26,349 nucleotides of DNA from positions 1-26,349 of IMG/VR virus record IMGVR_UViG_3300006737_000163. The stretch is one strand, 5' to 3'. Both the position numbers and the translations under genes were made by a program. The stretch is from a virus. The first letter of the stretch is position 1; each line of letters starts with the position of its first letter. The notes beneath the pieces are model-generated. The model was not told the DNA's origin and did no database searches. It saw only the letters and a program-made list of their open reading frames with translations. This document shows, in pieces, positions 1 through 19,535 of the stretch.

Positions 1-3000
1 GAATCTGTATATTCCAGTACTTCTGAGTATTGTGGAGTCTCTGGGAATCTACTTGCATCATCTACAGTAATTGTTCTGAGACCATTTGCTGCACTTTCAA
101 TACTTTTTACTATACATTTTGGATTTAGAGATGTATTTTGTAATATATGTGAATATATATTTGGATATATTGAAGGATATCCTGCAATTGTTAATTGTAC
201 TCCTATACTTCCGAAGGTACTTCTCTTTATCTGATAGTAATTATCTGGGCGATGAAGTGCTATGTGTTTGAAATTGTTAGAGGAACTGTCGTCTGGAGCG
301 ACCTTGTGGATGAACGACCACCAAGGTGTGCTGACTGTGTATCCGGGCGTGGCATTCCTGAACTGACCCGGTGTGTACGGTAGTGCTCTACGTGTGAAAA
401 CGGGTGATTCCGTGCCTTCTACCCCGAATTGATTGTACAATAGTAAGGGTGGTAAGTTGGTGAATTGGCTGCCGTGGTCCGGGTTTATGTCAAGCATTGC
501 CTCGTTGATGAACACTTCACAACCTCTGACATCAGCCTGCGTAGCCTGTGCTAGAATCAGGGAAACAGTGCCTAGAGTGTTGTTGGCAGGTCTTTTGCCT
601 ATCACCGTATGTACCTGCTGACTGGTCAGCGATTGTGTGGAAGCACCTACATCTGCGTGGAAACCGATTAATTGCGTGGAGAAAGTGTTGGGTTGTATCA
701 CAATCTGATATGCACCCACTTCAGCAGGGTCTGGGAAGTTCTTGCCCAAAGTGTAGTAGTATGCGGATTCAAGAACTATGGTGTGTCCACCTTGTTGATT
801 TACCGTACCTGCGTCACCTGTAGATGCGAGAATGCCGTAACCATCATATTTGATACCCGTCTCGAACATAAGCGTAAACGCACCTCCATGGATATCGCTG
901 GGCAGCGATGGAGCAGCGTTTACACCACTGAATGCCAACTCAGGGTCGTGGACGTTGAACTGGTCTACTACTGCGCCTGACGCTAAAGCAGTCAACTCTG
1001 CTTTGTTCATGGTGGCAGTTACGCTATCAGCCAGTATGTTCTTGTCAGCAAAGCCTCGCAGTGATGCGTTTTCTGCTCTGTGCATCGTGAATAGACTCTG
1101 GTAAACAGGGTGTGCCCAGTGACCGGGAAGCATAGGCATTGTCGGTGTGACGAAGTGATGACCCATGCGTGGTAGAGGCATTGGTGTCAATACCTGCTTG
1201 TTGTAGATGTTGTATGCTAGGGTATTGGCATTGACCGTACCGTATGTTCCTGAGGAGTATTCCGTCTTAGCCATGTCTGGTGAGTTACCACTTACCTCTG
1301 CGTGGTCACGTAGCCTTCTAGATGCGAAGAAGCGATTGCTACCGGCTGGAATGTAGTATGATGGTGAGATGTTGATTGTAGTCGAGGCTGGTGGGTTCGC
1401 TGCTAGGAAGGTGGTGAAGTCCACGTCTCCTACCACCCCTTCAAACGTGCTTCCGCTGATGTTTGTGTAAGAGACCACCACTGAGTCAGTGCTAGTAGCA
1501 AGGCGTAGGAAGCGTCTGTTGTCGCCTACCTCCTTAGTTCCGAACCCAGCGTCGTATATCGAGGAGTCTACGGTGGATGACACAGTGAGTATAGTGCCGC
1601 TGAAACCACTGACTGTGAGGCTTTGACTTACCACACCGCCTGCATGAGTGTACTCTGTGGGGTATCTCTCGGTGCTGCTGTGTCCCATCTTCGTCACATG
1701 GAAGTACAGTGTCCTGTCATGCTGCTCGTAACTGGATTGCAGAGGTGCGCTGTTGGTCGCTTCCTTCCAACCAGCATTGGTGCTGTCCTTGGTCAGCACG
1801 TCGATGTGCTCCCAGTTGTGGTCCTCGTATGTAGGACCTGTGCGTGGACTGGACACTGAGTTATCGAACAGGCTTCCTATGTAGTTCTCATTCAGGTCTG
1901 GGTGTATCATGCCACCAGAACCCATGGTCTCGTTCTGGTACGCCTGTAACCTGTCGAACCCTGACCTCACCACGATGTTGCCGGGTATGGAGTTGGGGTC
2001 AGGCAACTGTATCTTGAGGTTGGGTGCAACGTCGCTGTTGGCGAGAGCAGGGGACATGCCCTTCGTTTGCCTGTCAGTGACCTTTCTGAAACCACGTATG
2101 ATTGTACCCAGAGGACTGCCACCCTCAAGGACGTGCTCCTGCCCTGAATCGTCAGTGACGGTCATCTCACCGAACTGCATCTCCTCGTTGGGTATCTCCA
2201 AGACGTTCTGTATGTTGAGTGGGAACTTGGATGCGAGTTGAGGGTGATTCAACTCCTGTGCCTGTAGCACTGGTAGCATGGCACTGTTGGTGGTCTCGAA
2301 CGTGAATCTGACGTTGCCGTATATCTTCTCACCCATGGTGTAGGCGTTGTTGCCACTCACCCTGTTCACGAAAGGCACAGCGCCCAGACCACGTGCATTG
2401 ACCGCTGGTAGAGAGAGGTTGCCACCATCCATCCTCTTCCACACTATGTGCTCTATCGAGAAGTTCTTCGCTGCTGACCTCTTGTACAGGTCGTATGCAT
2501 TCACATCACCGACCCAGAAGTCGTCGTGTGATGGTGTACCGCTGTCATCGTATAACTGTGTAAAGTCCTCACCACTACTACCACCAATACCATTACCGTA
2601 TAGGTCGGCTGCGACGTTTCTCTCCACACCATCCTCCTCAAGGAAGAAAGAGCCTACTGAGTGGTCTAGGTCGAATATCAGGTCGCCTGTCTTGTGCAGG
2701 CTGGGTATGGCGTTTCTAAGAGTGGAGTTGCTAGCAGTGCCGTGCAGGAAGTACTCCGCATCGAAGGTCGTGTCCAGCACATGGTCCGTCGTGTAATCAC
2801 TGATAGTCTTGACAGTAGGTGTGGTGTGTACCATCGCCTCTACGTTAGGACCTGCGTTCGCTGGTGCTATGAATCGGTCTTGACCGTGGAATCGCTCATC
2901 CCACCTCGTAGTACCAGCATAGTGGATGGGGTTGGCTACACTGTTAGCAGCAGCACCCTTGACTTGCAGCCAATCACCTAGGCCTGTGATACCGTCCCTG

Positions 3001-6000
3001 TCGTACTTAGCCACGAGAGCACTCTCACACTCGTAACTCACCACTATGAATGCCCTGCCGAACACCCCCTGTGGGTGTGTCATGAAGTCAGGTAGAGTGG
3101 TGTCGATGTACGTGGGAGGCTTGGTGTGTATCGTGTGGGGGGCAACGAAAACATCGTGCCCGATTTGATAAGCAGCCTGCCTATCAAGATTCACCCTAAA
3201 TCCAGTGGAATTACTGTATGGGTCACCTAGGTATGTCATCAGGTTTGCTCCATTAGCACCCATTCCATCTATTGGTGGTGATGCCTCAGGGCTGTGCACC
3301 ATAGCGCCAACAACGGGTAGATGACCTAATGCTGTGATTGCCGAGGATGCACTACCATACGGTGAGAAGCCGAGCATCGGATGCCAAGCACCTAATCCAG
3401 CGGCATATCCCTGTGTACCAACCTTCAGGCTGTTGAGGTAGGAGTATCTCTCTCCTGCCCAACCGACCGCACCTATCGGTCTTGTCCTGTCTATGGCATC
3501 TACCAGACCTGAGAAGTGAGTCTGGCACATGTGGTCACGACCAGTGTCATTCTCGTTGTTGAATCTGTGAACGCCTGCTTTAGACCAAATCCATATAGAG
3601 CCTGTGGATGGTGTAGCAAACTTGCTGTTATTACTCCAAGTAACCTTGTCCTCAAACTTCATGTGTCCAGTTATTCTATTAGGTGCAAGGTAGAACTTGA
3701 CTTTGATTCCACTGTCATCGAACACCTCTCTGGCGTAGTAGGGAGCGAAACCTGAAGAGTTTGTCCTGAGCCACCCACATGCAGGTATCTCCTCACTTCC
3801 AGTGAAAGTGTCATCTATGTATACTGTGAGATGGTTTTCGGATGGATTTTCAGCAGTGGTATCACCTGTCTGGGCTATTGATACGAAGGTACTCTCAATC
3901 CAACCATACCTATCTTGCCTCATCGCATTACCCATTGATGGCATGTGTGTACCACCCATGGCCTTGAGTGCACCAGCGCCGGGGAAGGTATTGATTGCAG
4001 AACCCACTATTGTGGCGAGTTCCTCACCGTTCTGACATCTCGTGGCATCCACGATGATGTACTCCATGTCCACCTCGCTAGAGGCAACGTCTTCGCTGTA
4101 TGCCAGTACCTTGGTGGTGATTGGTCCTGCCACCCTGTATGCGCTTGGATGTAGCACTGTGTTCGCTGAACCGCTACCCCATCTCTGTAGTATGGTTTCG
4201 CCCTTGGGGTGTGGGGGGTTGAATGTGATTTGGTTGTCCATCCAATGACCACCGGGGTGGTATCCACCATCCATGTGATACACCATGTCTGCGGCCATGG
4301 CTACACCGTGGCCAATCACTGAGCAGTGTCTCATTGGGTGGGCCTTCTTCAAATCGTCATCTATGCCAGATGTCGCTGTCCTGTAATTGAAGTGATTACC
4401 GTACATCCTGCCTGATGCCTGTGACTGCTTGAGTATCGCTAGGTTGGGTTTGCCTTGTGGTGTCTCCCAATTGAGAGTAGTCCTCCAGTGGAATCTGCCT
4501 CTTGCCAACTGGTAGGCAGAGGCCTCAGGCATGAAGTAGCCATCACCGAATGTACCATTGGCCAACACCCCGTCGCTTTCTATGTGGTTGGGGAATCTCC
4601 TTGCATCAGTCGCCTTGGGTACTTTGCTGTGCCCGTTACCGTTCACTATGACCCTGCCCGGATGAGGCTGCTTGATGTTGTAACTACCGGCGTTGTCTGC
4701 TACCTCCTGTGCGAATGGGAACGCCTGACCCGGTCCGAAGATGATGTATGTCGTCTTGTTCTCCACACTAGCGTCCTTGTGGTCCTCGTATCTGGCGGTG
4801 GGATGTGCGAACCTCAGAATCAGTGGGCTGGGTTTCTGCACTCTTACATTAGTGCCGGAGTTGTTGGTGTAAGGGGTGCTGTTCGGGTGACTGCTGTTGA
4901 TTGTCACACCACCCCTCGATATGTCTGGGGACAGTATGTTGTCCCTGTTGAACATCGGTGGTAGTATGCTTCCCCTGTGTTGATTACATAAAGCAGCACC
5001 GGGGAAGAAGGCGAACATCGCATTGCCGTCAAGCAGGGCGAAACTGGTGGATATCTCGTTGGCGTTCTGTATGCCTGTAGTTCCTGTAGGGCCATTCGCA
5101 TACGGGTGTGTGTAGAATGAGGAGTAGTCGTTCTTCGTACCGTCGTTGATGTCGAGCGTCACACCGCTGAATCCACCACCGAAGAACAGGGGCACGCTGT
5201 GGTCAGTGCTGCTCTTCCCTCCTCTGAAGAACACGTATGGCTCGGAGAACACGCTGCCTAGCGAGCGCAGTCCATCGAAGTGCTTGGTCACATCCAGAGT
5301 GGCCCAGTGCGAGAAGACTACGTTGTCGTTTACTTCAGTTGCAGGCCAGTCCTCCGATGAGTTTGACCAGACGAACTTGGTCGTGCTATTTCCACCGTTG
5401 AGGCTCTCCACAGTGACAGACTTCTTGTCATTCATGAAGATGGTCTTGGTCTCACCGAAGGATGGTATCCTGCTGCTAGAACCCTCTTGTCCTGCTGGTA
5501 TGAGGAAGTTCCACATCTCGTGGTCTAGTGTGATGTTCTGAGTGTTATCTGCCTCCCAGTCGGTGTTTGTTGCGTTCTTGTCGAACATAGCAGTCGGGTT
5601 GTTTATCATAGGCAGGATGTGGTCACCGCTGTGGCGTGTGAAACTCTCACCCTTCAGGTTCTTCCTCCAATCGCTGATGTCAACGGGGTTGTTCAGGGAG
5701 TCAACCAGCACTGGTGTGGCTGTGTTGCCGTTAGGCCCTCTGCTTCTGGTGGCTATCTGTAGCACGGTCTTGGGTATGTAGCCACAGGCAATCCTCCTGT
5801 TGGTCTCTATGTCTGTATCTGCTGTGGCTCTTGATGTGCCGAAAGCCCAACCTGTTGATAGCAGTTCAGTCTTCTCCACTTCTCCTAATTCGACGTGTGC
5901 TGCCTGTATCCCCAAGTCGCTGTGTATGGATGCGCTGAAGAGGTCTGATATGGGAGTGATGTTCTTGGTCGGGTCGAATGCTCGTATGGTGATGGCATCG

Positions 6001-9000
6001 GCAGACACACCCATGTCACCGAACGTCTTGCCGTTGGTGGCGTACATCTCGGTGCAGTCGAAGTTCACTCCCTCAATCAACTGGCTCGTTGTCGCATTGA
6101 TTGCAGCAGTAGTGACAGCAGCCATCAACTCGTCAGTCACGAGTGTGGTCCAATTGAGTACAGGACTAATGAGGTATCCAGCAGTATCGTATGTGTGTTC
6201 TACCTCATCACCAGCAATACCGAAGAACTGGTGAGTACCGTCCTTGTCGTTCTGCGTTCTCCTTGTATAGGAATAGGTCATACCCTCGTTGCCTCCTCCA
6301 GAATCAGTCACCTGTATCATACCGTCGGTTAGTGGGAAACCTAGGTAGCCAAGCACATCATGATGTACAAGTCCACTAGCGTTGTTGAATGGCGCTTGTA
6401 ACGACACCGTGAGAGTGGTACTGCTTCTGCTTATTCCACAGTTGACCGCTATATTCGGTGCAGACACACCTCTCCATCTGTTGCCAGTCCACTCCTTCTG
6501 AGTCATAGTGCTGGCATTGCTGGTGTCCATTCTACCAGTGGCATCACCTTTGCCACGCATGTGCTTGCCTATGGTGAAACCACCCTGAGCCATATCCCTA
6601 TCATCGAAGAAGACGCAGACCTCGTTGGATATGGTGTCTGGGAGAACTGTGTTGTCGTTTGCGAAACCTAGTCCTGCACCTCTGTAGATGTATCGTATAC
6701 CATGATTGCCACCCCTGTGGTCTGTGAGTTTGAGTCCGTATATCGGTGAGTCACCTAGTGTGTCGGACTTCAGTTGATTCGCATCTGTGTGGTCGGTGTA
6801 GGCTACTGCCACGCTCGACCTACCGTATGTGTCTCGGAATGACTGAGAACCCTTCTTGCCAAAGCCCCAAGGTCCTGCTATTGGTGAGAAACCGGGTACG
6901 CCACTGGCTACCAGCCCACCGAAGTTCACTCTACCAAAGGAGTTCTTACCGACTCTGAGTCCCTGTATTATGGTTGATGATGAGCCTATTGTGGAGAATG
7001 ACTCTGTATTGACTGTGTTGAACTGCTGCCCCCCACCTAAGGCATTTGATATTGCTCTGATGACAGGACTGCTGTCATCGTCAGAATCAGTGAAGTCAGT
7101 CGTGCTGATTACATCCTCACCCGTCTCCTCTGGATTTATGTATTGTGTGAGAGTGGTTATCGGTGCGAACGGTCTGCCGTGCTTGTTGAGTGGCATGGGT
7201 GCAGGGTGCATGTTCTCACCCTCCTTCTCCTCAGGAAGCGCCCAGAAGTTACGCCATCTACCACCATGTCCTATGAGGAAGTCTGGTTGGTAGACGCTCT
7301 GCCCCTTGCTGTTGTCTAGCCATACGCAGAAGTTCCTACCACTAGCACCCGGAACGGTGCTGTGTATGACCACGGTGAATCCCCTGTTGCCGTTCTTGTC
7401 CTGCACCTCCCTGCCCATGTGTGCTCTGACGTATCCCATGTGCGTTCCTCTATCACGAGAGGAGAACGCCTTGTCTGTATCCCAAAAGGGAGCGGGGTCA
7501 TGGGCACTACCAGTAGTGTCTTTGTCAACTACGATTTGTCCCTTGGGTGCGCCTGATTGGTTGATTTGCCTGACAATCTCCTGAGTTGCTGATTCTATGG
7601 ATACCACACCGGATTTACCTGCAACAGCGCCGCAGTCTATCGAGAGTCTTCTCAGGAAATCCATGTCCGTCCATTGCTTCAGATGCTGTAGCCTGCTCTC
7701 CTCATGCCCTGTGAGGTCTAGCGGTGTGTCTCTTATCCCCTTGAGGCACAGGAAGGCTGGTATGACACGAGTGCCGTCTGGTGTGTCGAAGAAGGTTGAC
7801 GGGTCTCTCAGTGTAGCACCGCTGGTGTCTGTTCTCAGTTTGACGAGTGCAGCAGTGAATGCCTCGGTCAATGACCTCTTGGTCCTTGAGAATGCATGGT
7901 CGCTGTTCGCTGTGAATGGATTGACTGTCGAGTCGTTTGTCCTCGGTAGAACACTGTCTCCCATTGAGTACTTGTTGGCCTCACCGAATATGCTGTACCC
8001 AGTATGTACGTGATGGCCGTGAGCCTTGCCGTATATTCCCGGTGATGAGGATGTGGTTGCGCTAGCAGGTAGGTTAGATGGTAGAGTCCCGTTGACTGCT
8101 GTCATTATGTTAGTGCCTATCCTGTTGGCTAGGTCATGCGAGTATGCACTCTCTATGAACTTGGACTGCTGTGTCGAGCGAATGTACCTGTTCTCACTTG
8201 GGAAACCGTTGGCTACGTCAATCTGGGTGGTTATCCATGATGGTCCACCACCGTTGAAGGTAGCAGTGTACTCAGCCAAGTCCACTGGTGCTGAACCGCT
8301 ACCCACCACCATGTTCCTCGGTCTGCCGATAGTGACTGCATCAGCGCTGGTCTGAACCTGCATGTGTAGGTCTTGGAATGCTATGAACTCCTTGTCATGA
8401 GCAACGTCATAGAGAAGCACCCTAGCATGCCCATCGTCAGCCAGATAGGGGTCAACGTAAGCCACCTTGGGTGCATCTGCCTCATCAAGTCCTAGTGATT
8501 TGTAGTTCTCCTTGACTGTCTGATTGACGTGCTGTGCGTAGTTTATCGCTGTCTCAAGGCAGGTGTCACCGATGAGGAAGTTCTCCAATGGCACGCTCTC
8601 CCTAGGTCTGGATGCAGCGAGACTAGCCACACCACCGTTGAAGCCCTTCCATACCTGAGCCTCATTGAACACACCTCTGCTCTTGGAGAACAATCCCTCT
8701 GTCGCATAGGGGTTGTTGATTGTCATGTTGGCCCATATCGTATCACCGCTTCTCAGTCCACCAGCAGCATATGGATAGTTCCAAGACTTGTTGAGAATAG
8801 CGTCAGCGTCTTCCTCGTATGCGTTGGCTATGGAAAGCCTGAGTGGTACGTCGTCAGCATCTGCCGCAGCGTTAGCAGCGTTGGCTGTCAGGGTGACATC
8901 ATATGTGCCGTTATCGTAATCTTCTATAGCAGCCACTGTACCTATGAAGAGTATCTTGCTGGCGGTTTCCTCTGAGTAAATCAAATCGCCTATTCTTAGA

Positions 9001-12000
9001 TTCAAGCCTAGAGTGTTAGCACCAGCGAGTCTTCCATTACTATTTTCAATTGTAACAGTTGCACTGTTTGTTGCCGCTATAATTGTCCAAGCATCGTCAC
9101 CAGTGGGTTTGAAAGTCTTGGCTATATTCTCGTTGTTGGCCTCCTTCAAGGCTGCGTTGTTGCCGTCATCCCCGTCAACAGCACCGAAGATATCCCTCAC
9201 CCTTCTAATGAGTTTCAACTCCTTGCCGGGTAGATTTGTAACCCAAGAAGGTGTGGATGATGATGCTGCTCTATATACGAACACCAAGACATTGGGTGCT
9301 ATGGTGTCGCTGATGCTGTTCTTGGTGAGTCTTCCGTAGTAATGCAATTTCTGAACAGTGCCGTCGCTTAGTATGGTCTCTGCTTCGTAGAGGAACTCAC
9401 CTGAGGAGAAGGAGTACGTGCTCATGTCCTCGTAGTCCAAGTCAGGGAAGAGGTCCATGTCCTCGTCAGACATGGTGACTAGGACTTGGTTGATGAAAGA
9501 ACCATTCCCGCCTGATAGGTTCTTGTGTGCGGCAGTGACCACATTGCCGACAGCCCTGCCTGAGACTATCCTAGGTGCGTGTGGATTGGACTCAGGACCT
9601 TCCTTGAACTCCACTGCGCTCACGTACTGGCGCATTCCGTAGTCCACATTGCCTCCCTGTGTCTTGACGCTGGCTGAGTCGTGGTAGTACTCCGACCTGT
9701 TCTCGAAATCCGAGGATGGTGTGAAGGCATCAGAGCCTATGGGAACTATACCCTCCAGTGGAAGTGAAGGTCCACCAGTAGTTATTGAAGCACCAACAAC
9801 AGCCTCATCGAGGAATCCTGACGAGAATGCCCAATTCTCTGCACCGTTGTCCTTAGGTATGTAGAGTGATGCTTGTCCCACAGTGGTCGATATTTGGACG
9901 TAGTATGCCCATTCACCACTGGGTAGGAAGACCTTCCTGTAGTTCCTGACATTATCGACATTCTGATAGTTCTCGTCGTCGGTGTTATCTTCATTCATCA
10001 GTAGAGCACCATATTGCGGTCTTGGGAAGATTCCGATGTCTTCTACACGAATGAAGTAGAAGGATGGATTGGATGTCACTTTCGTGATTCTTGTCGAGGG
10101 GGCGTATTGGTTCTGCCTCTTGTTTAGGGTGTAGGCTGATATCGCTTCCCTATCTGTTGGTTCTACACCCTTCGGTCTCCTACCCACAGGACTTGGGTTG
10201 TACGTGTGTGGGGTGTGTGTAGCATCTATGTGAATCTTGAACGAGTTGTCTGGTCCGGGGAAAGTGCCCGTTCGCACGTCATCGAAGAACTGGTTTGCGA
10301 AGAACGGTATCTCTACCATCGCCCTTGTGCTTGCGTATTGAGTGCCGAGTTGGTAGTCATGCTGCACATCGCTCATGCCTTGGAACATCCTGTCGTTGAT
10401 GGTAGAGCCATCCTCAGCGAGTGATGACTCATCGAAGAAGCGGTCTGCAAACAGTGTTACTGAGACATTGATATCTTCTAACGATGATATGCCTTTGGAG
10501 ATGTCAGTGGCTGATAGCCAACTTGAGAAGTCTGTGAACTCAGTGCCATTGGCTAGTAGGAACTTACCTGCTCCTGCGCTGGCTGCGTCTGTGAAGACAA
10601 ACTCTGATGAGGTTTTGCTGTCATATCTAGCACTAGCACCGTCTTGTAGGTAGACCCTGCCTGCCTTGGGGAATCCGTATGTGCCCCAAGATGCTAGGTC
10701 TGATGAGTTGTTGTTGAGTGGCTTGACTGCAATTCGACCGCCCCCTGAGCCTGATACCGCTAGATAACCGACAGCACACATGTTCCTCCTCGTGGAGAAC
10801 GGGAGTCTGGCTAGCGGGCTTGGGTCATATGTGGGTTTGACATCCATAGCACCCTGACCCGGACCACCGAGGGTGACTGTGACTACTGGTGCGTTAGGCT
10901 CTATCTCCTTGACCACCTGTGAGTCTGGACTGCCCTTTCCTCTCACGTTTACTGACCTGTTGACTGTCGATTCTGTGAGACCCACACAACGTACTGTGGT
11001 GAAACTCTCACCACCTTGGTCAGAATCCAGCACTGCCCTGATTCTGGCTCTGCTCATCAGATACATCATGGTGATGTTGTTAGGCTCTTTGAAATCGGTA
11101 GACTGCGACCTCAATCCTGAGAGTTGGTTGACTCTCCTCCTATCGGAGGGTTGTATGAACATCCTTACGCTACCATCATCTTGAAATTGGTTGTCGATGA
11201 TATCGAACATTTCGTATATGTGTGTCCCAGAGGCAGTGCCTGCTTTGTCGAACTCACCGTTGGATGGTGACTGTATGACCTCGCTAGGCTCTCTTCTGAA
11301 GTACAGTCCCTTATCTGTCAAGGAGTCGTTCTTGCTTCTGCTGGGTTCTATGACCATCTTGTGAAACACAGAGTCGTGTTTCGTGGTAGGTGTGTGTGAG
11401 GCTGTGATTATCTGAGGTGTTTTGTTAGGATGTGCATTAGTGCCTATACCTATGAATAACTCCTCTCCATCGGTAATAGCAACAGCACGGTTATCCGTGA
11501 GGGTGATGTTAGCCCCTATCCCTCCTGACGCTATTGTGCCCACAAATGCTAGGTTTGAGTTGTAGATGTCATCTCCCTCTGCTATGTTGCTGCTCTCGCT
11601 GCTAGTGCCGTTGGTGGTGATGGTAGTACCGCCACCAGAGGCTTGCTTACCATCTACAGTGATTCCGGTGGGGGTCATCGGTTTGTGGTTGATTGGTGTG
11701 AGACTCTCATCCAATTCGTCGTCTGACTCATATCCCTCACTGACATCACCTATCAGAGAGTGGTTCTGCCTTAATGACCCCTTGAGAACATCAACATCTG
11801 TGAAGTCGATGTATCCACCAGCAGCGAACAACTCTGACCTTATTGTGCTTGTCTCTATTGCAGTTTTGATTAGACTGAAGACAGTAGTAGTGCCGGTGAC
11901 TATAGTAGAACCAGCAGGTACTGTCTTCTCCACCATCAGCAGGGGTTGTGTGACACCGCTCATGCTAGCCCCAGTAAGGTCTATCGCATTGTAGTAGACC

Positions 12001-13916
12001 TTGACGAAGGGAGCAAGATTGTACGAAGTCAGTGCGGGAACTTTGAGAAGGGCTATTCTGCTCTTCTCACTGGGTCTGAGGTGAAGTCTGCGTGTCTCTG
12101 TGTTCAGATTGTCTAGGTCTTGTGGGACAGGTCCTTTCAGCATGAATGGTAGATAGTCGAAACTAGGACCACCAATTGCAATCACCTCTTTCTCTGCATC
12201 AACCAACCCGTTGTCAAATACTACTTGTGCCTCTGTGTTATTGATTAACTCGTCAATCAGAACCGTACCTTGGTCTCTGTAGACATCGACTCTGCTGTTT
12301 ATTGATATCTGGTCGGAGATGCCACCTTTGGAGACATCGTACATCACATCTATGATGTCAGCAGAACCGTCTATCTGCTGGTCGATTATCTCCTCCTGTG
12401 CTCTTGGCATCATCTTGAGGAAATCATGACCATCAACGTGGTTGAGAGTGTGTCTACCACTGTGACCCAATTGGAGAGATGTGTCTACGTCAGTGGGCCA
12501 AGTGACTGCGTATGCGTTGTCTGAGGTGTCTGTTGCCATGTTAGTCGAGTAGACGAATCCGTGCAAACCAAACTGACTTTCGTCAATCACCATTTGCCCT
12601 GTCCTGTCTATCATCTGTGTGGAATGATGAGGTGGTTGGTATGGTCTACCACTGGCACTGTCTATCAGTAGGTCAGCACCTATGACTACGAAGTAGTTGT
12701 CAACACCCGCTGTTCTGCTATGTAGAGCCTTACGAAGTCCGTTCAGTGAACTGGAGAAGTCCAGATGCACGCTGGACACGAGACAGTTACCGGTAGATGT
12801 GTTGATGTTGTGAAGCCTGACTCTCTCTGGCGGTTTGTTGTTGGGCTTGAACACATCTCTGTCTGTAGCACCGGCATTGATGAGCAGGTTGTATGGTGTG
12901 TGAGAGACTGCGTATGTGGTTGGAGTACCTGTGTTCTGTAGGTAGTTGACGACCTTGTAGTCCCCTCCTGAGAACTTGTGTGTGCTGTCCTTCGAGAACA
13001 CGTAGTTACCCGATACCGTTTCCAAACCAGTGAGTTTCTTGGCTAGTTTGACTGCATCAGCAGTGCTGAGTGATATCTGGGATATGGTAACACTCTGTCC
13101 ATCCATGGTAATGCTGTTATCTGATATCGAGGAGAAGGTATAGACATCCTCTATAGGTGCTATTGGTTCTTCAAACCTATAAAGCAGCAACGTATTCTCG
13201 TTGGCTATGGGTGCAGACCTCTCTATAGTACCCTCATCGAAGTGACCAGAGATGTGAAGTGACTCCATCACTCCCCTGAATTGTCCTCCTTTACCACCCA
13301 CATACACATGTGCGTTGCCCTTGGCTATGCTCAGGGTTCTGTTTACCAACTCCTTGGATACCATGAGTTCACCATTGATGTAGAGTTCTATGGAGTTGTT
13401 TCTCACTGCTGCTACTATGTGCATCAGTGGTCGCTGGTCTGTGTTGAGCGTGGTTGGGTCGTCGTGTGAGCCGCTGTACTTGTTGTAAGACGAGTGTATA
13501 CCGCCGAAATCTGAAGCAGGATACACTACACCTTCGTATCCTCTCCCAGAGACTTTCGTTCCTGTTGATAGGAAATGATGTTCTTGACCCGCATCAGTGT
13601 TCAGAAACACCTCGAATGTCGCAGGACCGGGTGTGTCTACCTCGCCCAATGATAACTTGAACTGGTCTTCCTTCTCTACCACGACACCGCCACAATCAGG
13701 TATGACCCAAGCCTCTATGCATATCTGAGTACTCAGTACACCAGACAGTGTACCCTCGCCCTCTATGTGTTGCTTTTCACCCAGTATGTTTACCTTCGAT
13801 TTAATGCCATCTGATGTCTGCTTTCCCAAGCGGCTCATAGTGCCCTGTGGTACTACTATGCTGTCTGACACGCCGTCAAACAAGAAAGCGTGATTTGAGC
13901 GTCCGAGTATAGGCAT
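1..13916 (-). CDS. Giant virion protein, probable tail-tip/host-recognition protein (at least 4638 aa, C-terminus off window)
   Basis: A single frame is open from the ATG at 13916 to the window edge without a stop, giving at least 4638 residues (roughly 500 kDa). The start MPILGRSNHAFLFDGVSDSI is the usual opening of a LamG/concanavalin-like domain. That domain runs to about residue 245, with ICIEAWVIP, a NNSIELYINGELM strand pair and a closing LLLYRFEE. Two copies of a small beta module lie near 780-825 and 1640-1690 (GDDIYNSNLAFVGTIASGG; IGDLIYSEE...FIGTVAAIE). A His-rich stretch lies near 3190-3245. The rest is Gly/Asn/Thr/Ser-rich, beta-type, with few Cys and no membrane segment or enzyme motif that I recognise. 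The SD is weak (GTGAT, 3 bases before ATG), so translation is probably coupled to the preceding gene. Position after the distal-tail gene suggests adhesion. Confidence 0.85.
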   Translation of the reverse strand, partial: MPILGRSNHAFLFDGVSDSIVVPQGTMSRLGKQTSDGIKSKVNILGEKQHIEGEGTLSGVLSTQICIEAWVIPDCGGVVVEKEDQFKLSLGEVDTPGPATFEVFLNTDAGQEHHFLSTGTKVSGRGYEGVVYPASDFGGIHSSYNKYSGSHDDPTTLNTDQRPLMHIVAAVRNNSIELYINGELMVSKELVNRTLSIAKGNAHVYVGGKGGQFRGVMESLHISGHFDEGTIERSAPIANENTLLLYRFEEPIAPIEDVYTFSSISDNSITMDGQSVTISQISLSTADAVKLAKKLTGLETVSGNYVFSKDSTHKFSGGDYKVVNYLQNTGTPTTYAVSHTPYNLLINAGATDRDVFKPNNKPPERVRLHNINTSTGNCLVSSVHLDFSSSLNGLRKALHSRTAGVDNYFVVIGADLLIDSASGRPYQPPHHSTQMIDRTGQMVIDESQFGLHGFVYSTNMATDTSDNAYAVTWPTDVDTSLQLGHSGRHTLNHVDGHDFLKMMPRAQEEIIDQQIDGSADIIDVMYDVSKGGISDQISINSRVDVYRDQGTVLIDELINNTEAQVVFDNGLVDAEKEVIAIGGPSFDYLPFMLKGPVPQDLDNLNTETRRLHLRPSEKSRIALLKVPALTSYNLAPFVKVYYNAIDLTGASMSGVTQPLLMVEKTVPAGSTIVTGTTTVFSLIKTAIETSTIRSELFAAGGYIDFTDVDVLKGSLRQNHSLIGDVSEGYESDDELDESLTPINHKPMTPTGITVDGKQASGGGTTITTNGTSSESSNIAEGDDIYNSNLAFVGTIASGGIGANITLTDNRAVAITDGEELFIGIGTNAHPNKTPQIITASHTPTTKHDSVFHKMVIEPSRSKNDSLTDKGLYFRREPSEVIQSPSNGEFDKAGTASGTHIYEMFDIIDNQFQDDGSVRMFIQPSDRRRVNQLSGLRSQSTDFKEPNNITMMYLMSRARIRAVLDSDQGGESFTTVRCVGLTESTVNRSVNVRGKGSPDSQVVKEIEPNAPVVTVTLGGPGQGAMDVKPTYDPSPLARLPFSTRRNMCAVGYLAVSGSGGGRIAVKPLNNNSSDLASWGTYGFPKAGRVYLQDGASARYDSKTSSEFVFTDAASAGAGKFLLANGTEFTDFSSWLSATDISKGISSLEDINVSVTLFADRFFDESSLAEDGSTINDRMFQGMSDVQHDYQLGTQYASTRAMVEIPFFANQFFDDVRTGTFPGPDNSFKIHIDATHTPHTYNPSPVGRRPKGVEPTDREAISAYTLNKRQNQYAPSTRITKVTSNPSFYFIRVEDIGIFPRPQYGALLMNEDNTDDENYQNVDNVRNYRKVFLPSGEWAYYVQISTTVGQASLYIPKDNGAENWAFSSGFLDEAVVGASITTGGPSLPLEGIVPIGSDAFTPSSDFENRSEYYHDSASVKTQGGNVDYGMRQYVSAVEFKEGPESNPHAPRIVSGRAVGNVVTAAHKNLSGGNGSFINQVLVTMSDEDMDLFPDLDYEDMSTYSFSSGEFLYEAETILSDGTVQKLHYYGRLTKNSISDTIAPNVLVFVYRAASSSTPSWVTNLPGKELKLIRRVRDIFGAVDGDDGNNAALKEANNENIAKTFKPTGDDAWTIIAATNSATVTIENSNGRLAGANTLGLNLRIGDLIYSEETASKILFIGTVAAIEDYDNGTYDVTLTANAANAAADADDVPLRLSIANAYEEDADAILNKSWNYPYAAGGLRSGDTIWANMTINNPYATEGLFSKSRGVFNEAQVWKGFNGGVASLAASRPRESVPLENFLIGDTCLETAINYAQHVNQTVKENYKSLGLDEADAPKVAYVDPYLADDGHARVLLYDVAHDKEFIAFQDLHMQVQTSADAVTIGRPRNMVVGSGSAPVDLAEYTATFNGGGPSWITTQIDVANGFPSENRYIRSTQQSKFIESAYSHDLANRIGTNIMTAVNGTLPSNLPASATTSSSPGIYGKAHGHHVHTGYSIFGEANKYSMGDSVLPRTNDSTVNPFTANSDHAFSRTKRSLTEAFTAALVKLRTDTSGATLRDPSTFFDTPDGTRVIPAFLCLKGIRDTPLDLTGHEESRLQHLKQWTDMDFLRRLSIDCGAVAGKSGVVSIESATQEIVRQINQSGAPKGQIVVDKDTTGSAHDPAPFWDTDKAFSSRDRGTHMGYVRAHMGREVQDKNGNRGFTVVIHSTVPGASGRNFCVWLDNSKGQSVYQPDFLIGHGGRWRNFWALPEEKEGENMHPAPMPLNKHGRPFAPITTLTQYINPEETGEDVISTTDFTDSDDDSSPVIRAISNALGGGQQFNTVNTESFSTIGSSSTIIQGLRVGKNSFGRVNFGGLVASGVPGFSPIAGPWGFGKKGSQSFRDTYGRSSVAVAYTDHTDANQLKSDTLGDSPIYGLKLTDHRGGNHGIRYIYRGAGLGFANDNTVLPDTISNEVCVFFDDRDMAQGGFTIGKHMRGKGDATGRMDTSNASTMTQKEWTGNRWRGVSAPNIAVNCGISRSSTTLTVSLQAPFNNASGLVHHDVLGYLGFPLTDGMIQVTDSGGGNEGMTYSYTRRTQNDKDGTHQFFGIAGDEVEHTYDTAGYLISPVLNWTTLVTDELMAAVTTAAINATTSQLIEGVNFDCTEMYATNGKTFGDMGVSADAITIRAFDPTKNITPISDLFSASIHSDLGIQAAHVELGEVEKTELLSTGWAFGTSRATADTDIETNRRIACGYIPKTVLQIATRSRGPNGNTATPVLVDSLNNPVDISDWRKNLKGESFTRHSGDHILPMINNPTAMFDKNATNTDWEADNTQNITLDHEMWNFLIPAGQEGSSSRIPSFGETKTIFMNDKKSVTVESLNGGNSTTKFVWSNSSEDWPATEVNDNVVFSHWATLDVTKHFDGLRSLGSVFSEPYVFFRGGKSSTDHSVPLFFGGGFSGVTLDINDGTKNDYSSFYTHPYANGPTGTTGIQNANEISTSFALLDGNAMFAFFPGAALCNQHRGSILPPMFNRDNILSPDISRGGVTINSSHPNSTPYTNNSGTNVRVQKPSPLILRFAHPTARYEDHKDASVENKTTYIIFGPGQAFPFAQEVADNAGSYNIKQPHPGRVIVNGNGHSKVPKATDARRFPNHIESDGVLANGTFGDGYFMPEASAYQLARGRFHWRTTLNWETPQGKPNLAILKQSQASGRMYGNHFNYRTATSGIDDDLKKAHPMRHCSVIGHGVAMAADMVYHMDGGYHPGGHWMDNQITFNPPHPKGETILQRWGSGSANTVLHPSAYRVAGPITTKVLAYSEDVASSEVDMEYIIVDATRCQNGEELATIVGSAINTFPGAGALKAMGGTHMPSMGNAMRQDRYGWIESTFVSIAQTGDTTAENPSENHLTVYIDDTFTGSEEIPACGWLRTNSSGFAPYYAREVFDDSGIKVKFYLAPNRITGHMKFEDKVTWSNNSKFATPSTGSIWIWSKAGVHRFNNENDTGRDHMCQTHFSGLVDAIDRTRPIGAVGWAGERYSYLNSLKVGTQGYAAGLGAWHPMLGFSPYGSASSAITALGHLPVVGAMVHSPEASPPIDGMGANGANLMTYLGDPYSNSTGFRVNLDRQAAYQIGHDVFVAPHTIHTKPPTYIDTTLPDFMTHPQGVFGRAFIVVSYECESALVAKYDRDGITGLGDWLQVKGAAANSVANPIHYAGTTRWDERFHGQDRFIAPANAGPNVEAMVHTTPTVKTISDYTTDHVLDTTFDAEYFLHGTASNSTLRNAIPSLHKTGDLIFDLDHSVGSFFLEEDGVERNVAADLYGNGIGGSSGEDFTQLYDDSGTPSHDDFWVGDVNAYDLYKRSAAKNFSIEHIVWKRMDGGNLSLPAVNARGLGAVPFVNRVSGNNAYTMGEKIYGNVRFTFETTNSAMLPVLQAQELNHPQLASKFPLNIQNVLEIPNEEMQFGEMTVTDDSGQEHVLEGGSPLGTIIRGFRKVTDRQTKGMSPALANSDVAPNLKIQLPDPNSIPGNIVVRSGFDRLQAYQNETMGSGGMIHPDLNENYIGSLFDNSVSSPRTGPTYEDHNWEHIDVLTKDSTNAGWKEATNSAPLQSSYEQHDRTLYFHVTKMGHSSTERYPTEYTHAGGVVSQSLTVSGFSGTILTVSSTVDSSIYDAGFGTKEVGDNRRFLRLATSTDSVVVSYTNISGSTFEGVVGDVDFTTFLAANPPASTTINISPSYYIPAGSNRFFASRRLRDHAEVSGNSPDMAKTEYSSGTYGTVNANTLAYNIYNKQVLTPMPLPRMGHHFVTPTMPMLPGHWAHPVYQSLFTMHRAENASLRGFADKNILADSVTATMNKAELTALASGAVVDQFNVHDPELAFSGVNAAPSLPSDIHGGAFTLMFETGIKYDGYGILASTGDAGTVNQQGGHTIVLESAYYYTLGKNFPDPAEVGAYQIVIQPNTFSTQLIGFHADVGASTQSLTSQQVHTVIGKRPANNTLGTVSLILAQATQADVRGCEVFINEAMLDINPDHGSQFTNLPPLLLYNQFGVEGTESPVFTRRALPYTPGQFRNATPGYTVSTPWWSFIHKVAPDDSSSNNFKHIALHRPDNYYQIKRSTFGSIGVQLTIAGYPSIYPNIYSHILQNTSLNPKCIVKSIESAANGLRTITVDDASRFPETPQYSEVLEYTD

Positions 13917-13920
13917 GATA

Positions 13921-15135
13921 TCACAACAAGAAGTCCACAGGTACGAAGTTCATCACAATGTCGTAGACATTCTCGCCTGCGTTGTATGTGATGTCTAGTT
14001 TGTTTACTGTGCCTTTTATGCCTGTTGTGTTGCCTGTGAAGGTAGCACCTGCTGGATTGGAGTTGTTATCGCTCCTCTTGTCCTTGAATGATTTGCCGAA
14101 GCCTGTCGGCATGATGAAGTTGCGAGAGACGAAGTTATCGCCATCCGCTTGTATTGTCGAGTTGTATGGTATCTGTATACCCTTGATGTATCCGCTACCT
14201 CTACCTGCCCCGTCCATCATAATTCCCACACCTGCTGCCGCTACGCCAACACCGACAGGAGCACCGATTCCGGTAAAGGCAGCAGCACTTCCTCCTACTA
14301 CCATACCTAACCCTAGAGCGAACTTCTCAATACCTTCTTTCTTGGAGTTGTTCATAATGCCATATAGGTCCATCGCCTTGTCTCCTGCTGACCTCTTGGA
14401 GACGGTTAGTCCACCTGCGAACTTCTCATGTTGGGGAGGTCTGTATCCGTTAGGCTTCCGTGAGAATATAGGAGTGAGGTTGTCTCCATCCTCACCTACT
14501 GTGTTTTGTGTTATGGTGACTATGGTGTTGGATTCACCTGTGGTAACTGAATCTGATTTAGATGCGGTGAACTTTGCCGCTAAACTGGTTGTGTTGTTTA
14601 TCAGGTCTGTGAAAGCAGTGGCTAAACCTGCGTGTGTCAGTGAACCCGCAGGGTTGATTCCTATGATGTAATCGGTGTTGGTGGTATTGGTGAATGTGCC
14701 CGATGAGAGTTTCTGGAGTTTAATGACGAAGGTTGTACCGTCATGTGATGTCAACTGTATGGTAGAGAAACTGAACTCGTCTGAACCTTCAAAATAAGTA
14801 TTGTTGAACAACTTGGCTATGTTGGAATTAGTAGCACCACCACCATCTAGGTAACTCTGAATCTGGCCTCCTAGTAGGATGAAAGAGAAATCTATCCTTG
14901 ATTTGGAAGCAATACTAGAACCCACTAGATTCCTGTCGTCAGTAAGTACTGCGTTGATTAGTATCATCGACTTGTTCATGTTCAGGTCAAGTCCTACTCT
15001 TATACCACCAGTGAAAGGTGTGGGCATACCACCTGTCTTTCTCTGTGTTGTCATGGTCATGCTAGTGGCGTTTATCTCAGTCAACTGCCCATTGTCATGA
15101 ACCAGCCTGATAGGAACACCATTTGCCGCCGCCAT
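13921..15135 (-). CDS. Probable distal tail protein or tube-like tail-tip protein (404 aa)
   Basis: The gene after the tape measure is normally the distal tail protein, which joins the tube to the tip. N-terminal (about 1-70, INATSMTMTTQRKTGG, RVGLDLNMNKSMILINAVL) and C-terminal (about 310-404, LDITYNAGENVYDIVMNFVP) beta segments could form one tube-like fold. They are split by insertions: a domain near 130-230 with LATAFTDLINNTTSLAAKF followed by NTIVTITQNTVGEDGDN, and a Gly/Ala-rich, possibly membrane-active stretch near 275-305 (AFTGIGAPVGVGVAAAGVGI). The latter could be a hydrophobic insert that helps DNA entry, but that is speculation. The ATG overlaps the tape measure stop (TAATG). Four bases separate its stop from the giant frame. 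Confidence 0.65.
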   Translation of the reverse strand: MAAANGVPIRLVHDNGQLTEINATSMTMTTQRKTGGMPTPFTGGIRVGLDLNMNKSMILINAVLTDDRNLVGSSIASKSRIDFSFILLGGQIQSYLDGGGATNSNIAKLFNNTYFEGSDEFSFSTIQLTSHDGTTFVIKLQKLSSGTFTNTTNTDYIIGINPAGSLTHAGLATAFTDLINNTTSLAAKFTASKSDSVTTGESNTIVTITQNTVGEDGDNLTPIFSRKPNGYRPPQHEKFAGGLTVSKRSAGDKAMDLYGIMNNSKKEGIEKFALGLGMVVGGSAAAFTGIGAPVGVGVAAAGVGIMMDGAGRGSGYIKGIQIPYNSTIQADGDNFVSRNFIMPTGFGKSFKDKRSDNNSNPAGATFTGNTTGIKGTVNKLDITYNAGENVYDIVMNFVPVDFLL

Positions 15136-16007
15136 TATGCAAACCTACTTTTTGTCGTTGTGCCACCTAGTGCTCTGGCAGTTTCCTCTTGCATCAATTC
15201 ACCTAACTCTCTGGCTAGTTGTCTCTTGTCAGAACGGTCTGTCACTCCTGAGATGTTGATATTCATTGTGAAGTACTGATTAACCCCACCAGATACAGCA
15301 GTTCCTATTTGAGTACCACCAGATTCTTTCTTCTTTTTATTACCACCGAATAGTCCTTTGGCTTTGTCTATCAGACCACCAACAGCACCAGCGATTGCAT
15401 CCTTGATTTTCTTGATTATATTCCAAACTTGCTTGAAAGGCCACAGCATTATGTCGCCTACCTTGGCGAACTGGTCGCCTATGAACTTACCAACACCTGC
15501 TAATTTGCTCTTTAATCCACTGACCAACTTGCCTATTTTACTGAATGCCTTCCCTATTGCTTCGCTTATCTTAGACGGTATACCGAAGATGAAGTCCTTT
15601 AGAGCAACCAGTTTGTCTATTGCTTTATCCTTGAGAGTGCCAAACAAATCAGGTATGCCCACTATGGCATTTGTCAGTTTCTCTTTTATCGTGCCGAAAG
15701 CCTCAGGTATCTTCTTGAAGCCATCAACGATGAAGCCTATTACTTTCTTTGCTATATTCAACACACCATTGAACACCTTCTTCGCTATACCTATGAAAGG
15801 CTCAAGTGCAGGTATCACCTTGTCTTTTATGAAATCCTTAATCTTGGTGAATATCTTCACAGCGAGTTGTCCTAGTTTGTTGAATACTGCACTGAAAAGC
15901 GTGCCTATCATACTTATACCGCCTTGTACAGCAGTTATACCGCCTTGAATCAAAGTGGTTGATGAGTTGATGGCTGCAAGGGATGCCAATATTGGAGCGA
16001 ATGCCAT
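15135..16007 (-). CDS. Short tape measure protein (290 aa)
   Basis: This would set tail length and occupy the tube lumen. Residues about 10-50 are hydrophobic, Ala/Ile/Gly-rich. Residues 50-215 are a chain of short amphipathic helices with Ile/Phe/Lys repeats (KIFTKIKDFIKDKVIPALEP, KKVIGFIVDGFKKIPEAFG), typical of tape measures. The end, FTMNINISGVTDRSDKRQLA then LGELMQEETARALGG, resembles the tape measure C-terminus of other siphoviruses. At roughly 1.5 angstrom per residue it would specify a tail of only about 43 nm. The ATG overlaps the previous stop and follows AGGAGGATGA. The stop overlaps the next ATG. The assignment is supported by the preceding G/GT pair. Confidence 0.8.
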   Translation of the reverse strand: MAFAPILASLAAINSSTTLIQGGITAVQGGISMIGTLFSAVFNKLGQLAVKIFTKIKDFIKDKVIPALEPFIGIAKKVFNGVLNIAKKVIGFIVDGFKKIPEAFGTIKEKLTNAIVGIPDLFGTLKDKAIDKLVALKDFIFGIPSKISEAIGKAFSKIGKLVSGLKSKLAGVGKFIGDQFAKVGDIMLWPFKQVWNIIKKIKDAIAGAVGGLIDKAKGLFGGNKKKKESGGTQIGTAVSGGVNQYFTMNINISGVTDRSDKRQLARELGELMQEETARALGGTTTKSRFA

Positions 16008-16650
16008 TAGAAGTCATCCTCCTGCAAGAAGGAGTAGTCTAGTTTTACTATGTCATTGCTCTCAGTATTGGACCTGACCCTCGCTTCCTCTGCATGTTTC
16101 TCTTCCTCTGCGTCGTACACCATGGCCCATACTAGAGACTGTCTGAATATCTCTTCGCTCATGTTGTATACCTCTGTCAGTGAAATCCCGTAATGTTTTG
16201 CTATGTTGTATGCAAACAACTGTAGTTGGAGTTCGATGTCTTCTGATGACTCTATTGCTTGTCTCTTCAGAAAACTCTCAACCCTCAGTTGCTCGCTTTG
16301 GTAAACCCCCCTTGCATAGCCTCCGCCATCTCATCAGGCTTCGGGAGGAGCGATGCTAGTTGCTCACCAGCATATGCATTGAGTTGTCTCATTTCTTCTA
16401 TGGTCAGTTCCGGGTTAGTGCCTACGACCCAATTAGTGAAAGCATACGACCAGTATGCCTCTAAATCAAGAGAAACGCCAGATTCATTCACCACGAACAT
16501 CGTTTGTGCTGCTTTCTGTACATCTAGATAAGTTATGTCTCTTATCCACACTTCCATGATAGCCTCAGGGTCGTCCCTATCGACTTGTATCTCATGTTTG
16601 TGTTCTTCTTTATTCGTTAATATCTTCCTCTTGTTCACTACTTTCGTCAT
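16007..16650 (-). CDS. Tail assembly chaperone, frameshifted form (gpGT-like, 214 aa)
   Basis: The frame downstream of the 121-aa chaperone is open in the -1 register from the GGGGGG run to TAA at 16009-16007. It contributes 99 residues, including FAYNIAKHYGISLTEVYNMS and IFRQSLVWAMVYDAEEEKHA. This T-part has no ATG near its beginning; the first in-frame ATG is well inside the conserved-looking helical part. Free translation would need a TTG at 16219 with no SD. A -1 shift at 16311-16306 gives 115 + 99 residues. This G/GT arrangement is conserved in siphoviruses and suits the position before the tape measure. The stop overlaps the tape measure ATG as TAATG. Confidence 0.7.
16285..16650 (-). 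CDS. Tail assembly chaperone, short form (gpG-like, 121 aa)
   Basis: Its position just before the tape measure gene, its size and its acidic helical content fit the G-type tail assembly chaperone, which coats the tape measure during tail assembly. The body includes DPEAIMEVWIRDITYLDVQ, a DLEAYWSYAFTNWVVG segment and TIEEMRQLNAYAGEQ. The ATG at 16650 lies inside the end of the SAP gene, with GAGGAAGTGA upstream. Codons 114-115 form GGGGGG, where a -1 shift would lead into the downstream frame. Without a shift, translation ends six codons later at TGA 16287-16285. Confidence 0.75.
   Translation of the reverse strand: MTKVVNKRKILTNKEEHKHEIQVDRDDPEAIMEVWIRDITYLDVQKAAQTMFVVNESGVSLDLEAYWSYAFTNWVVGTNPELTIEEMRQLNAYAGEQLASLLPKPDEMAEAMQGGFTKASN
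16303..16311 (-). promoter_or_regulatory. Probable -1 ribosomal frameshift site
   Basis: The minus strand reads CAA GGG GGG TTT ACC in the upstream frame. Slipping back one base on the run of six G keeps GGG pairing for at least one tRNA and continues as GTT TAC CAA. A weak 4-bp hairpin (CAAC/GTTG) lies about 15 bases downstream; I see no strong stimulator. Confidence 0.6.
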
Positions 16651-17284: not shown

Positions 17285-17294
17285 CTTCAAAACC

Positions 17295-19535
17295 TCAGGA
17301 ATGGAACACAGGGTCAATCGTTATGACCTTGATTGACTTAGGCATTATCTTCAGCATGCTCCTTATCGGTCCTTTGTCCTCAGGTATGGGCAGTGGTGCT
17401 TCTGTAATGAAGTAGTCATCAATTAGAATCTCTATGGTCTCTTTAGTACCACTACCGCCCTGTTTGACGAATGATAAACGTATCATGTCAGCGTCAGTGG
17501 TGTCTGTTGTAGTGTCATCGAAGTTATCTATGCTTCTTCTCATGTTGTGGTAGAACAGCGGGTCGTCTACTATTATCTCCATCTCCATGTCGTACTCGGT
17601 CTTGCCAGCGACGGATATGGTTGGGTTTCTAGTGCCTGCGTATGGTACTTGGTCGGTCTTAGAGTCAGCGACGTTAGCACCTGTGATGGTGTAGAACTGC
17701 TGCACTCCGGTGCTGCCGTTGAGTTGGAAACTGACGACTTGCCCAAGGGTAGTGCCCTTGACCCTCATCGTACCATTGTAGAACATGAATGGCTTCTGAG
17801 TCCTCTTGGCTATGCCGGACTCCTTCCTCTTGACCTCTGTGTTGGCCGTATCCTCGAAGAGTCTGTGTGCGTCGTACCTGTCACCTTCTTCTGAGTCTTC
17901 CAATCTACCAGTGTCGGTGTAACATAGAGCAGCATCGAAGTTCACTGTCATTTTTAAGGCAGCATCAGTATCAGCCTTGAGTGAGAAGTCTTTCACCTTG
18001 CATCCACGGAAGACACGTGTGAGTTGCTTTGAGTCACCTGCACTACCATCCACGACCTCTGTCGCTGCTGTGCCTGCACCAAGACCTGTGTCATTTCTCC
18101 TGATGCTAACCTCCATAGCGAAAGATGGTAGGTTGGTTCTGGAGTAGATGAGTTTCTCAACTGGATTCTGTAATGTACCGAAAGTCCCAGCACTAGAACT
18201 AGCCGCTGTGGTGAGGAGATTAGGACTACCGTTAGACCCGTCTGCCATGAACCTACAGAAGTAGATGTCCATGTCGGTGTCATGATTGAAGTTGAAAGGG
18301 TCATCGACCCATATCTTGCTGTTGTTTATGGCGACTATCCTTCTTATCTCGGTCTTGATAGCCTTGCTTATGACGCTATCAGCGCCCTGTGCTGGCCAAG
18401 TGCCGTCGCTTGCTGTTTCCCTGTGAGTGTGTACATCTGTGGTGTTGAACTCAGGGATTATCACATAGTCGCCTGCTGCTGGTGCTTCGTTGTCACCCGC
18501 ACCTAGTTCGCTGACAGCAGTGCCACTGTAGGCGAAGTAGGAGTCACCGGGCGAGATAGCACCGTCAGTCTCTAGGCTTGTTGTAGTACTTGTAGGACCA
18601 CACAGAGCAGATGGACTGAAAGCGAGCGTGTCTGCTGTCGTCAACTGAACCTTAGTGCCACCCTCCTCGAATCTCATGGTACTGTTTGCTCCGCTATCGG
18701 AAACAGCGGTCAATCTACCTACATATGTCCCGTCGCTCTTGAAGATTGCATCTCCAGCACCGACTCCTGTGATTGCCCCGTCTAATTGTATATGGGTGGC
18801 CGTTCCTGCTGCGATAGTTTCTTCGACTTTACCGGTTATGGTTGTTAGTGGTAGTTTGGCCAACTCGTGACCTAGTGCGTAGTAGAACCAACGACCGTTG
18901 TGTATGTTGCACTCGAAAGAGCCGCCTGTATTGATGAACCTGCCCGGAGTCTGTACTGCTACGTCTCGACCTAGACCGACCACGTGGTATCTCTTCAGGT
19001 CCACGACGGTCTCAGGTAGAGCCACAGTGCCTACCAGTCCTACGAACTGGTCAGTGAGAACCCTCTCAGCAGCATCATTTGCGTGACCTGCATGAGTCAT
19101 GGATGTGTCCATGCTGGGAGTTTTGAATGGAAGTATGTGCAGAGCACCTGAGTCTGACGTTATGTCACCACTGCTGTGGTCTGTAAGCAGATGTGGGGAT
19201 ATGGTGAGTTCGATGTCGGATTGAGCGACTATGGTGTATACCCTACCAGACACGCTGTAGTTGTCATTAGCATCCCAAGGGTCGCCATCCAGACCGCTGA
19301 AGACGAGTTGACTGCCGACCAACATGCCTCTTGGGAAGGCAATCTTGGTGCTGTCTATCGGTGCTCCCGATGCGCCACCACTGAACTTGATGACGCTTGT
19401 ATCCTTGATTTTGTCTCTTGCACCGGACTTGGCAATGAACCTCACAGTGCCGAATGCATTGTGCTCTATTGTGATACCTGACTCGTGACCGAACGTGATT
19501 TCAGTCAGGTCTCCACGATAAACTGTTGACGGCAT
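17295..19535 (-). CDS. Tail tube (major tail) protein, enlarged (746 aa)
   Basis: This protein would polymerise into the tail tube. The C-terminal half carries tube-type features: FAMEVSIRRNDTG, an FRGCKVKDFSLKADTDAALKM motif followed by NFDAALCY, and later KTEYDMEMEIIVDDPLFYHN. This resembles the beta-sandwich of siphovirus tube proteins. The N-terminal half holds extra beta domains. One near 255-305 (GAGDAIFKSDGTYVGRLTAV) belongs to a small module also present twice in the giant protein. Tube proteins are commonly 150-350 aa, so this one probably has surface domains on each ring. The ATG is 9 bases after TGAGGTGA. The TGA stop again begins the SD of the next gene. Assignment follows from order (terminator before, chaperones and tape measure after) and these patterns. 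Confidence 0.75.
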   Translation of the reverse strand: MPSTVYRGDLTEITFGHESGITIEHNAFGTVRFIAKSGARDKIKDTSVIKFSGGASGAPIDSTKIAFPRGMLVGSQLVFSGLDGDPWDANDNYSVSGRVYTIVAQSDIELTISPHLLTDHSSGDITSDSGALHILPFKTPSMDTSMTHAGHANDAAERVLTDQFVGLVGTVALPETVVDLKRYHVVGLGRDVAVQTPGRFINTGGSFECNIHNGRWFYYALGHELAKLPLTTITGKVEETIAAGTATHIQLDGAITGVGAGDAIFKSDGTYVGRLTAVSDSGANSTMRFEEGGTKVQLTTADTLAFSPSALCGPTSTTTSLETDGAISPGDSYFAYSGTAVSELGAGDNEAPAAGDYVIIPEFNTTDVHTHRETASDGTWPAQGADSVISKAIKTEIRRIVAINNSKIWVDDPFNFNHDTDMDIYFCRFMADGSNGSPNLLTTAASSSAGTFGTLQNPVEKLIYSRTNLPSFAMEVSIRRNDTGLGAGTAATEVVDGSAGDSKQLTRVFRGCKVKDFSLKADTDAALKMTVNFDAALCYTDTGRLEDSEEGDRYDAHRLFEDTANTEVKRKESGIAKRTQKPFMFYNGTMRVKGTTLGQVVSFQLNGSTGVQQFYTITGANVADSKTDQVPYAGTRNPTISVAGKTEYDMEMEIIVDDPLFYHNMRRSIDNFDDTTTDTTDADMIRLSFVKQGGSGTKETIEILIDDYFITEAPLPIPEDKGPIRSMLKIMPKSIKVITIDPVFHS

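Follow-up and report, generated by a model that had tools for sequence, protein, structure and literature searches.

A giant gene in the tail module of magrovirus-like marine viruses probably encodes a core tail-tip protein

More than half of a 26,349-nucleotide viral sequence (IMG/VR record IMGVR_UViG_3300006737_000163, positions 1 to 26,349; the whole stretch analysed, hereafter the window) is taken up by one minus-strand frame without a stop codon, whose product is referred to here as the giant. The locus raises the questions of whether so long a frame is one real gene, in which kind of virus it occurs, and what a protein of this size might do in a tail module.

Extent and integrity of the giant gene

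The frame (positions 3..13916, (−)) begins with an ATG and was followed by translation through 4638 codons to the window edge, beyond which its stop lies. In the near-identical contig IMGVR_UViG_3300025102_000019 (L005), with 3 amino-acid differences across the common 4638 codons, the frame closes at 5567 codons, so that the window carries 83% of the gene; the L005 product has a computed mass of ~605 kDa and a pI of 5.5. When the window was shuffled 100 times, the longest open frame had a mean length of 177 codons and never exceeded 296, and the log10 probability of 4638 codons without a stop is approximately −89. A single frame of at least 4638 codons, open at the edge, had been proposed in the original prediction and was confirmed by the ORF listing, the translation, the shuffles and L005, which also supplied the stop to the left. 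Between L005 and L008, Ka was 0.058 and Ks 0.527 (Ka/Ks 0.11), and in blocks of 400 codons the ratio was at most ~0.20 everywhere; purifying selection acts along the whole gene.

Equally long genes occupy the same locus in relatives, where the original prediction had advised looking for them. The giant was complete in 14 of the 23 loci of a first set, the remaining 9 running off the contig or locus end, and in 24 of the 29 copies read when further contigs were included (5 cut by contig or locus ends). Each of the 24 complete copies is a single frame of 5236–6329 aa (median 5597). Two observations had been named in advance as speaking against the gene: relatives with several independent genes at the locus, found in none of the complete copies, and an in-frame stop or frameshift, likewise absent from these, with one exception elsewhere in the form of a single frame switch with a 20-base overlap in L200, either genuine or due to a sequencing error. 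In a wider set of 79 loci, drawn from 80 of 430 confirmed relatives, the frame was open to the left locus end in 78. The giant is thus one real, intact gene conserved as a unit.

How widely it is distributed was assessed in three overlapping samples. Among 20 contigs with the major capsid protein, picked mostly by length among 80 loci listed, the C-terminal piece was found in 15 and the N-terminal piece in 3 of the other 5; judged by coordinates, the last two (G024, G028) stop short of the expected position. A second sample of 21 contigs, picked among at least 80 loci, comprised 15 marine-type contigs, of which 13 matched the N-terminal profile and 8 the mid/C-terminal profile, and 6 HVTV-1-like records from salt-loving relatives, none of which matched either; the marine contigs missed, G040 and G045, both end within 4 kb of the capsid gene. 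The third sample, all those 19 of 59 PolB loci whose contigs measure 70 kb or more, gave 16 matches to the mid/C-terminal profile, 15 to the N-terminal profile and 17 combined, the misses being G024, which ends before the place in question, and G059. Most of the related marine viruses examined have the giant as a single chain, and in G003 and G005 it accounts for 17–18% of the contig. In G062 it is divided between both ends of a 103-kb contig (2176 + 3548 codons), as expected for a circularly permuted genome; the ends of this contig suggest that the genome is complete.

Pairwise identity of the giant ranges from 39 to 91% among 19 genomes and tracks that of the capsid protein (Mantel r 0.59, a value reached in 0 of 2000 permutations). 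A 27-row alignment contains 847 invariant positions, counted where at least 22 rows were without a gap, with the strongest enrichment for Trp, Gly, Pro and Arg; conserved blocks alternate with variable, gap-rich stretches of low conservation. The L024 copy carries a 588-residue repeat-rich insertion within a conserved C-terminal block (L024:25082-27070), for which an intein was considered and rejected by eye, the repeat-rich stretch having no intein-like look.

Affiliation of the virus

The window also encodes a major capsid protein (23694..24839, (−)) and a prohead protease (24842..26245, (−)), both matching those of HVTV-1, HCTV-5 and HCTV-1. The same Druskaviridae share the order of the head, tube, chaperone-frameshift and tape-measure genes. 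Magroviruses are described as having, among other traits, a chaperonin, PolB, an HMGL-like enzyme, a clamp-loader-like protein and halovirus-related structural genes (PMC10768690, PMC12999244), and the text available of PMC5332604 reports thermosome-type genes for magrovirus clade 1. Of the features by which Magrovirales are recognised, kinship of capsid protein and protease to Druskaviridae is found in the window itself, and PolB together with a chaperonin only in longer relatives, the window being too short; these relatives also encode a terminase, a clamp-loader-like AAA protein and an HMGL-like enzyme, and thus share with Aoguangviridae and Apasviridae the set of traits above. By gene content, set against published descriptions of Magrovirales, the virus is magrovirus-like, and from literature on similar viruses we infer that its host is a member of Poseidoniales. 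The giant gene is not mentioned in those portions of the literature that were searched, which did not include key magrovirus papers.

Two further observations concern the head region. A second very large protein (1859–1897 aa) is encoded upstream of the protease in relatives (L043:309-6002 (−), G001:42386-47965 (−)); it has a weak match to ATP-dependent DNA ligase at residues 1493–1577, below the Pfam cut-off, and HVTV-1 has a long 'zeta toxin' gene near the corresponding place. In G010 (C1:47322-48400) the capsid gene is broken up into two frames.

Organization of the tail module

Upstream of the giant, the window has the features of a tail module. The next gene (13921..15135, (−)) encodes a 404-aa protein matching no Pfam or PHROG family, which from its place might be a tail adaptor. 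It is preceded by a gene for a 290-aa probable tape measure protein (15135..16007, (−)), assigned from PHROG tape-measure families (best E 9.4e-10), its place and its helical look. Tail length follows tape-measure length at ~0.15 nm per residue, so the tail should be short, ~43 nm. Upstream of the tape measure gene lies a probable tail assembly chaperone pair (16007..16650, (−)), read from the sequence as two frames, one of 121 aa (16285-16650) and another that extends to 16007. The former stops just past six G and TTT (16303-16311), and a −1 shift at the G-run (16306-16311) probably joins the two; the frames measure 70–93 and 120–124 aa in relatives. Farther upstream are a SAP-domain protein (frame 16610-17317), within whose frame lies a perfect 12-base tandem repeat of 3.3 copies (17024-17063), and a 746-aa tail-tube-like protein (17295..19535, (−)) that resembles Pfam Phage_tube_2 with an E of 0.00067, below the family cut-off.

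The order of genes downstream was read from relatives, where the end of the giant could be located in 59 of the 89 loci tried, some of them on common contigs. In 53 of these 59, it is directly followed by a gene for ~464–509 aa and one for ~112–115 aa, and then by larger genes where the locus reaches. The exceptions are L012 and L013, with two extra genes before the ~470-aa gene, L190 and L191, with a 945-aa gene, L229, with three extra small frames, and L210, where the contig ends. Some of the downstream proteins match PHROG baseplate/fibre or structural families. The ~470-aa protein gave weak matches to phrog_1887 (E 0.0044), an XkdQ-related PDB chain (E 0.14) and HVTV-1 gp133 (41% probability), which suggest that it is hub-like; Phage-tail_3 was found in 3 of 47 neighbour proteins taken together (best E 0.00093).

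The giant thus sits between the tape measure and ~400-aa genes on one side and the hub-like gene on the other, in the tail-tip position originally predicted. The further proposal that it replaces separate fibre and baseplate genes is not supported: hub-like and fibre-like genes are present beside it, so that the giant has been added to them. The tail module of HVTV-1-like viruses is without a giant in all 6 records.

Sequence and structure comparisons

The profile searches and structure prediction recommended for the full frame were productive for its N-terminal part and gave no trusted match elsewhere. Residues 86–223 (13248..13661, (−)) resemble Laminin_G_3 (PF13385) with an E of 0.00047 and 20.8 bits, short of the curated cut-off of 27.6, and the same family was matched by 7 of 36 pieces of the giant from relatives (best E 2e-8). 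A usable structure model was obtained only for the first 1150 of 5567 residues (pLDDT 68.6); a deposited relative, UniProt A0A1B1IU10, has 49% identity to this N-terminal model. The top Foldseek matches were clostridial neurotoxin binding domains, with an rmsd of ~19 Å over ~420 columns, and this likeness was rejected. On re-alignment, PAPP-A, pentraxin and LamG-type domains came out on top, with Z 12.3–16.8 among the 50 matches listed and aligned residues ~6–500, which points to the common lectin jelly roll, and no toxin likeness is claimed. The modelled N-terminal part would accordingly have a LamG/pentraxin-like lectin jelly roll, a shared fold that in itself shows no function. Proteins of tailed phages with LamG/ConA-like domains are similar to the giant in this part only, and HCTV-5 encodes a small LamG protein after its own baseplate gene that has no profile match to it.

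Outside the N-terminal part no trusted match was found, which is not a claim that a known fold is lacking. The model for residues 3787–4674 (888 residues) was poor (pLDDT 48.9), and a small barrel at its residues 571–687, which aligns at Z 6.3–8.5 with the barrels of phage tail tube, T5 pb9 and EF-Tu, is too weak a likeness to use. The PDB yielded no match to the whole window protein and, at E 1, none to four of five segment profiles; those of the fifth, to separase (E 0.014) and an antibody chain (0.27), were taken as chance. No cellular relative was seen among the 21 stretches returned from genome contigs by two short patterns, a search that misses distant kin. A comparison of 630 window pairs for internal repeats gave a best probability of 26% and none that was convincing, making the giant unlike a repeat adhesin.

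Conservation and the proposed role of the giant

In our reading, the giant, with its ~5,500 residues, probably belongs to the structural core of the tail tip, a place in the virion that we infer; its N-terminus may contact glycans, with specificity set by the downstream fibres. This reading is favoured by the fixed place in the tail module, the single-frame copies, purifying selection, identity that tracks the capsid protein, conservation, the lectin-like fold and the lack of any membrane-like stretch in the L005 giant. It is weakened by the indirect placement in the virion, the small part that could be modelled, a better-conserved 114-aa neighbour and the weak hub matches.

The alternative that comes closest makes the giant itself the main receptor-binding adhesin, its specificity residing in the lectin-like domain or in exposed loops. 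The LamG-like N-terminus, the tail-tip place and the variable, gap-rich stretches amid conserved blocks would all suit such a function. However, few tail-tip proteins are as conserved as the giant: its identity exceeded that of both fibre-like neighbours in 9 of 9 genome pairs, of the hub-like neighbour in 8 of 9, and of the tape measure and ~400-aa protein in 8 of 8, the 114-aa neighbour being the more conserved in 9 of 9 pairs. The variability above other tail proteins that marks a fibre-type protein was thus not seen in the nine genome pairs, and separate, more variable fibre-like genes lie downstream. The giant's conservation above that of most tail-tip neighbours favours a core component over a variable receptor-binding tip, and we regard the adhesin as unlikely.

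The great length of the chain, the low-conservation stretches dividing its conserved blocks and the presence of a prohead protease gene could also indicate a precursor cleaved into several tail or baseplate proteins. Separately encoded homologues of the parts were nevertheless found neither in a phage collection, searched with a 2638-aa piece of the giant, nor among the tail proteins of HVTV-1/HCTV, compared by profile with segments of it, and a precursor appears improbable. Still less credible is a protein that travels in the particle and is injected, or acts in the cell, with no part in building the tail. Giant injected or transcription proteins are indeed described for other phages of the crAss-like type (available text of PMC7886860), yet neither the giant nor the pieces from relatives matched an enzyme family in Pfam, none of the DxDGD-type and other enzyme motifs tried was both present and conserved, and the gene lies between the tape measure and hub-like genes. 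Finally, only its length and its place in the tail module would make the giant an artefact of assembly or the tape measure protein. Both are very improbable, since nine relatives have a separate tape measure of 211–445 aa after the chaperone pair, the window giant matched no PHROG family at E 0.1, none of the 36 pieces matched a tape-measure family, and the same frame recurs in many contigs.

For the core structural protein that we favour, the following course is proposed. One chain of ~5,500 residues would be made in the distal tail of magrovirus-like viruses and would probably build much of an adhesion platform on a short tail, the residues beyond the N-terminal fold presumably having a structural role. 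Through the predicted LamG-like domain, the chain may make contact with archaeal host glycans, and the more variable downstream fibre-like proteins would set host specificity.

Co-occurrence with a viral chaperonin

Chaperonin genes (PF00118) were searched for in three overlapping sets of contigs and found in 22 of 31 (the 9 misses being 48–70 kb long), 4 of 10 (the misses being three marine contigs of 59–71 kb and 3 HVTV-1-like genomes) and 9 of 9. When each marine contig is counted once, all 29 that reach 73 kb or more have a chaperonin, versus none of the 3 HVTV-1-like genomes. The one chaperonin that was typed belongs to group II, since the 60 top-ranked PDB matches listed are thermosome, CCT or other group II chains, whereas Aoguangviridae are described with GroEL. 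The co-occurrence of chaperonin and giant fits one shared ancestor, and a client relation is therefore suggested, not shown. The full picture of a ~600-kDa, non-repetitive, single-chain tail-tip scaffold, without homologue in the genomes searched, that takes up ~17–18% of the genome and is folded by the viral thermosome is correspondingly tentative, and we hold it to be rather unlikely as a whole.

Implications

The giant represents a concrete candidate client for viral chaperonins. Its gene provides a sequence handle for finding particles of marine archaeal viruses in proteomes and is a candidate marker for the virus group, which would have a tail-tip design absent from the HVTV-1-like relatives examined.
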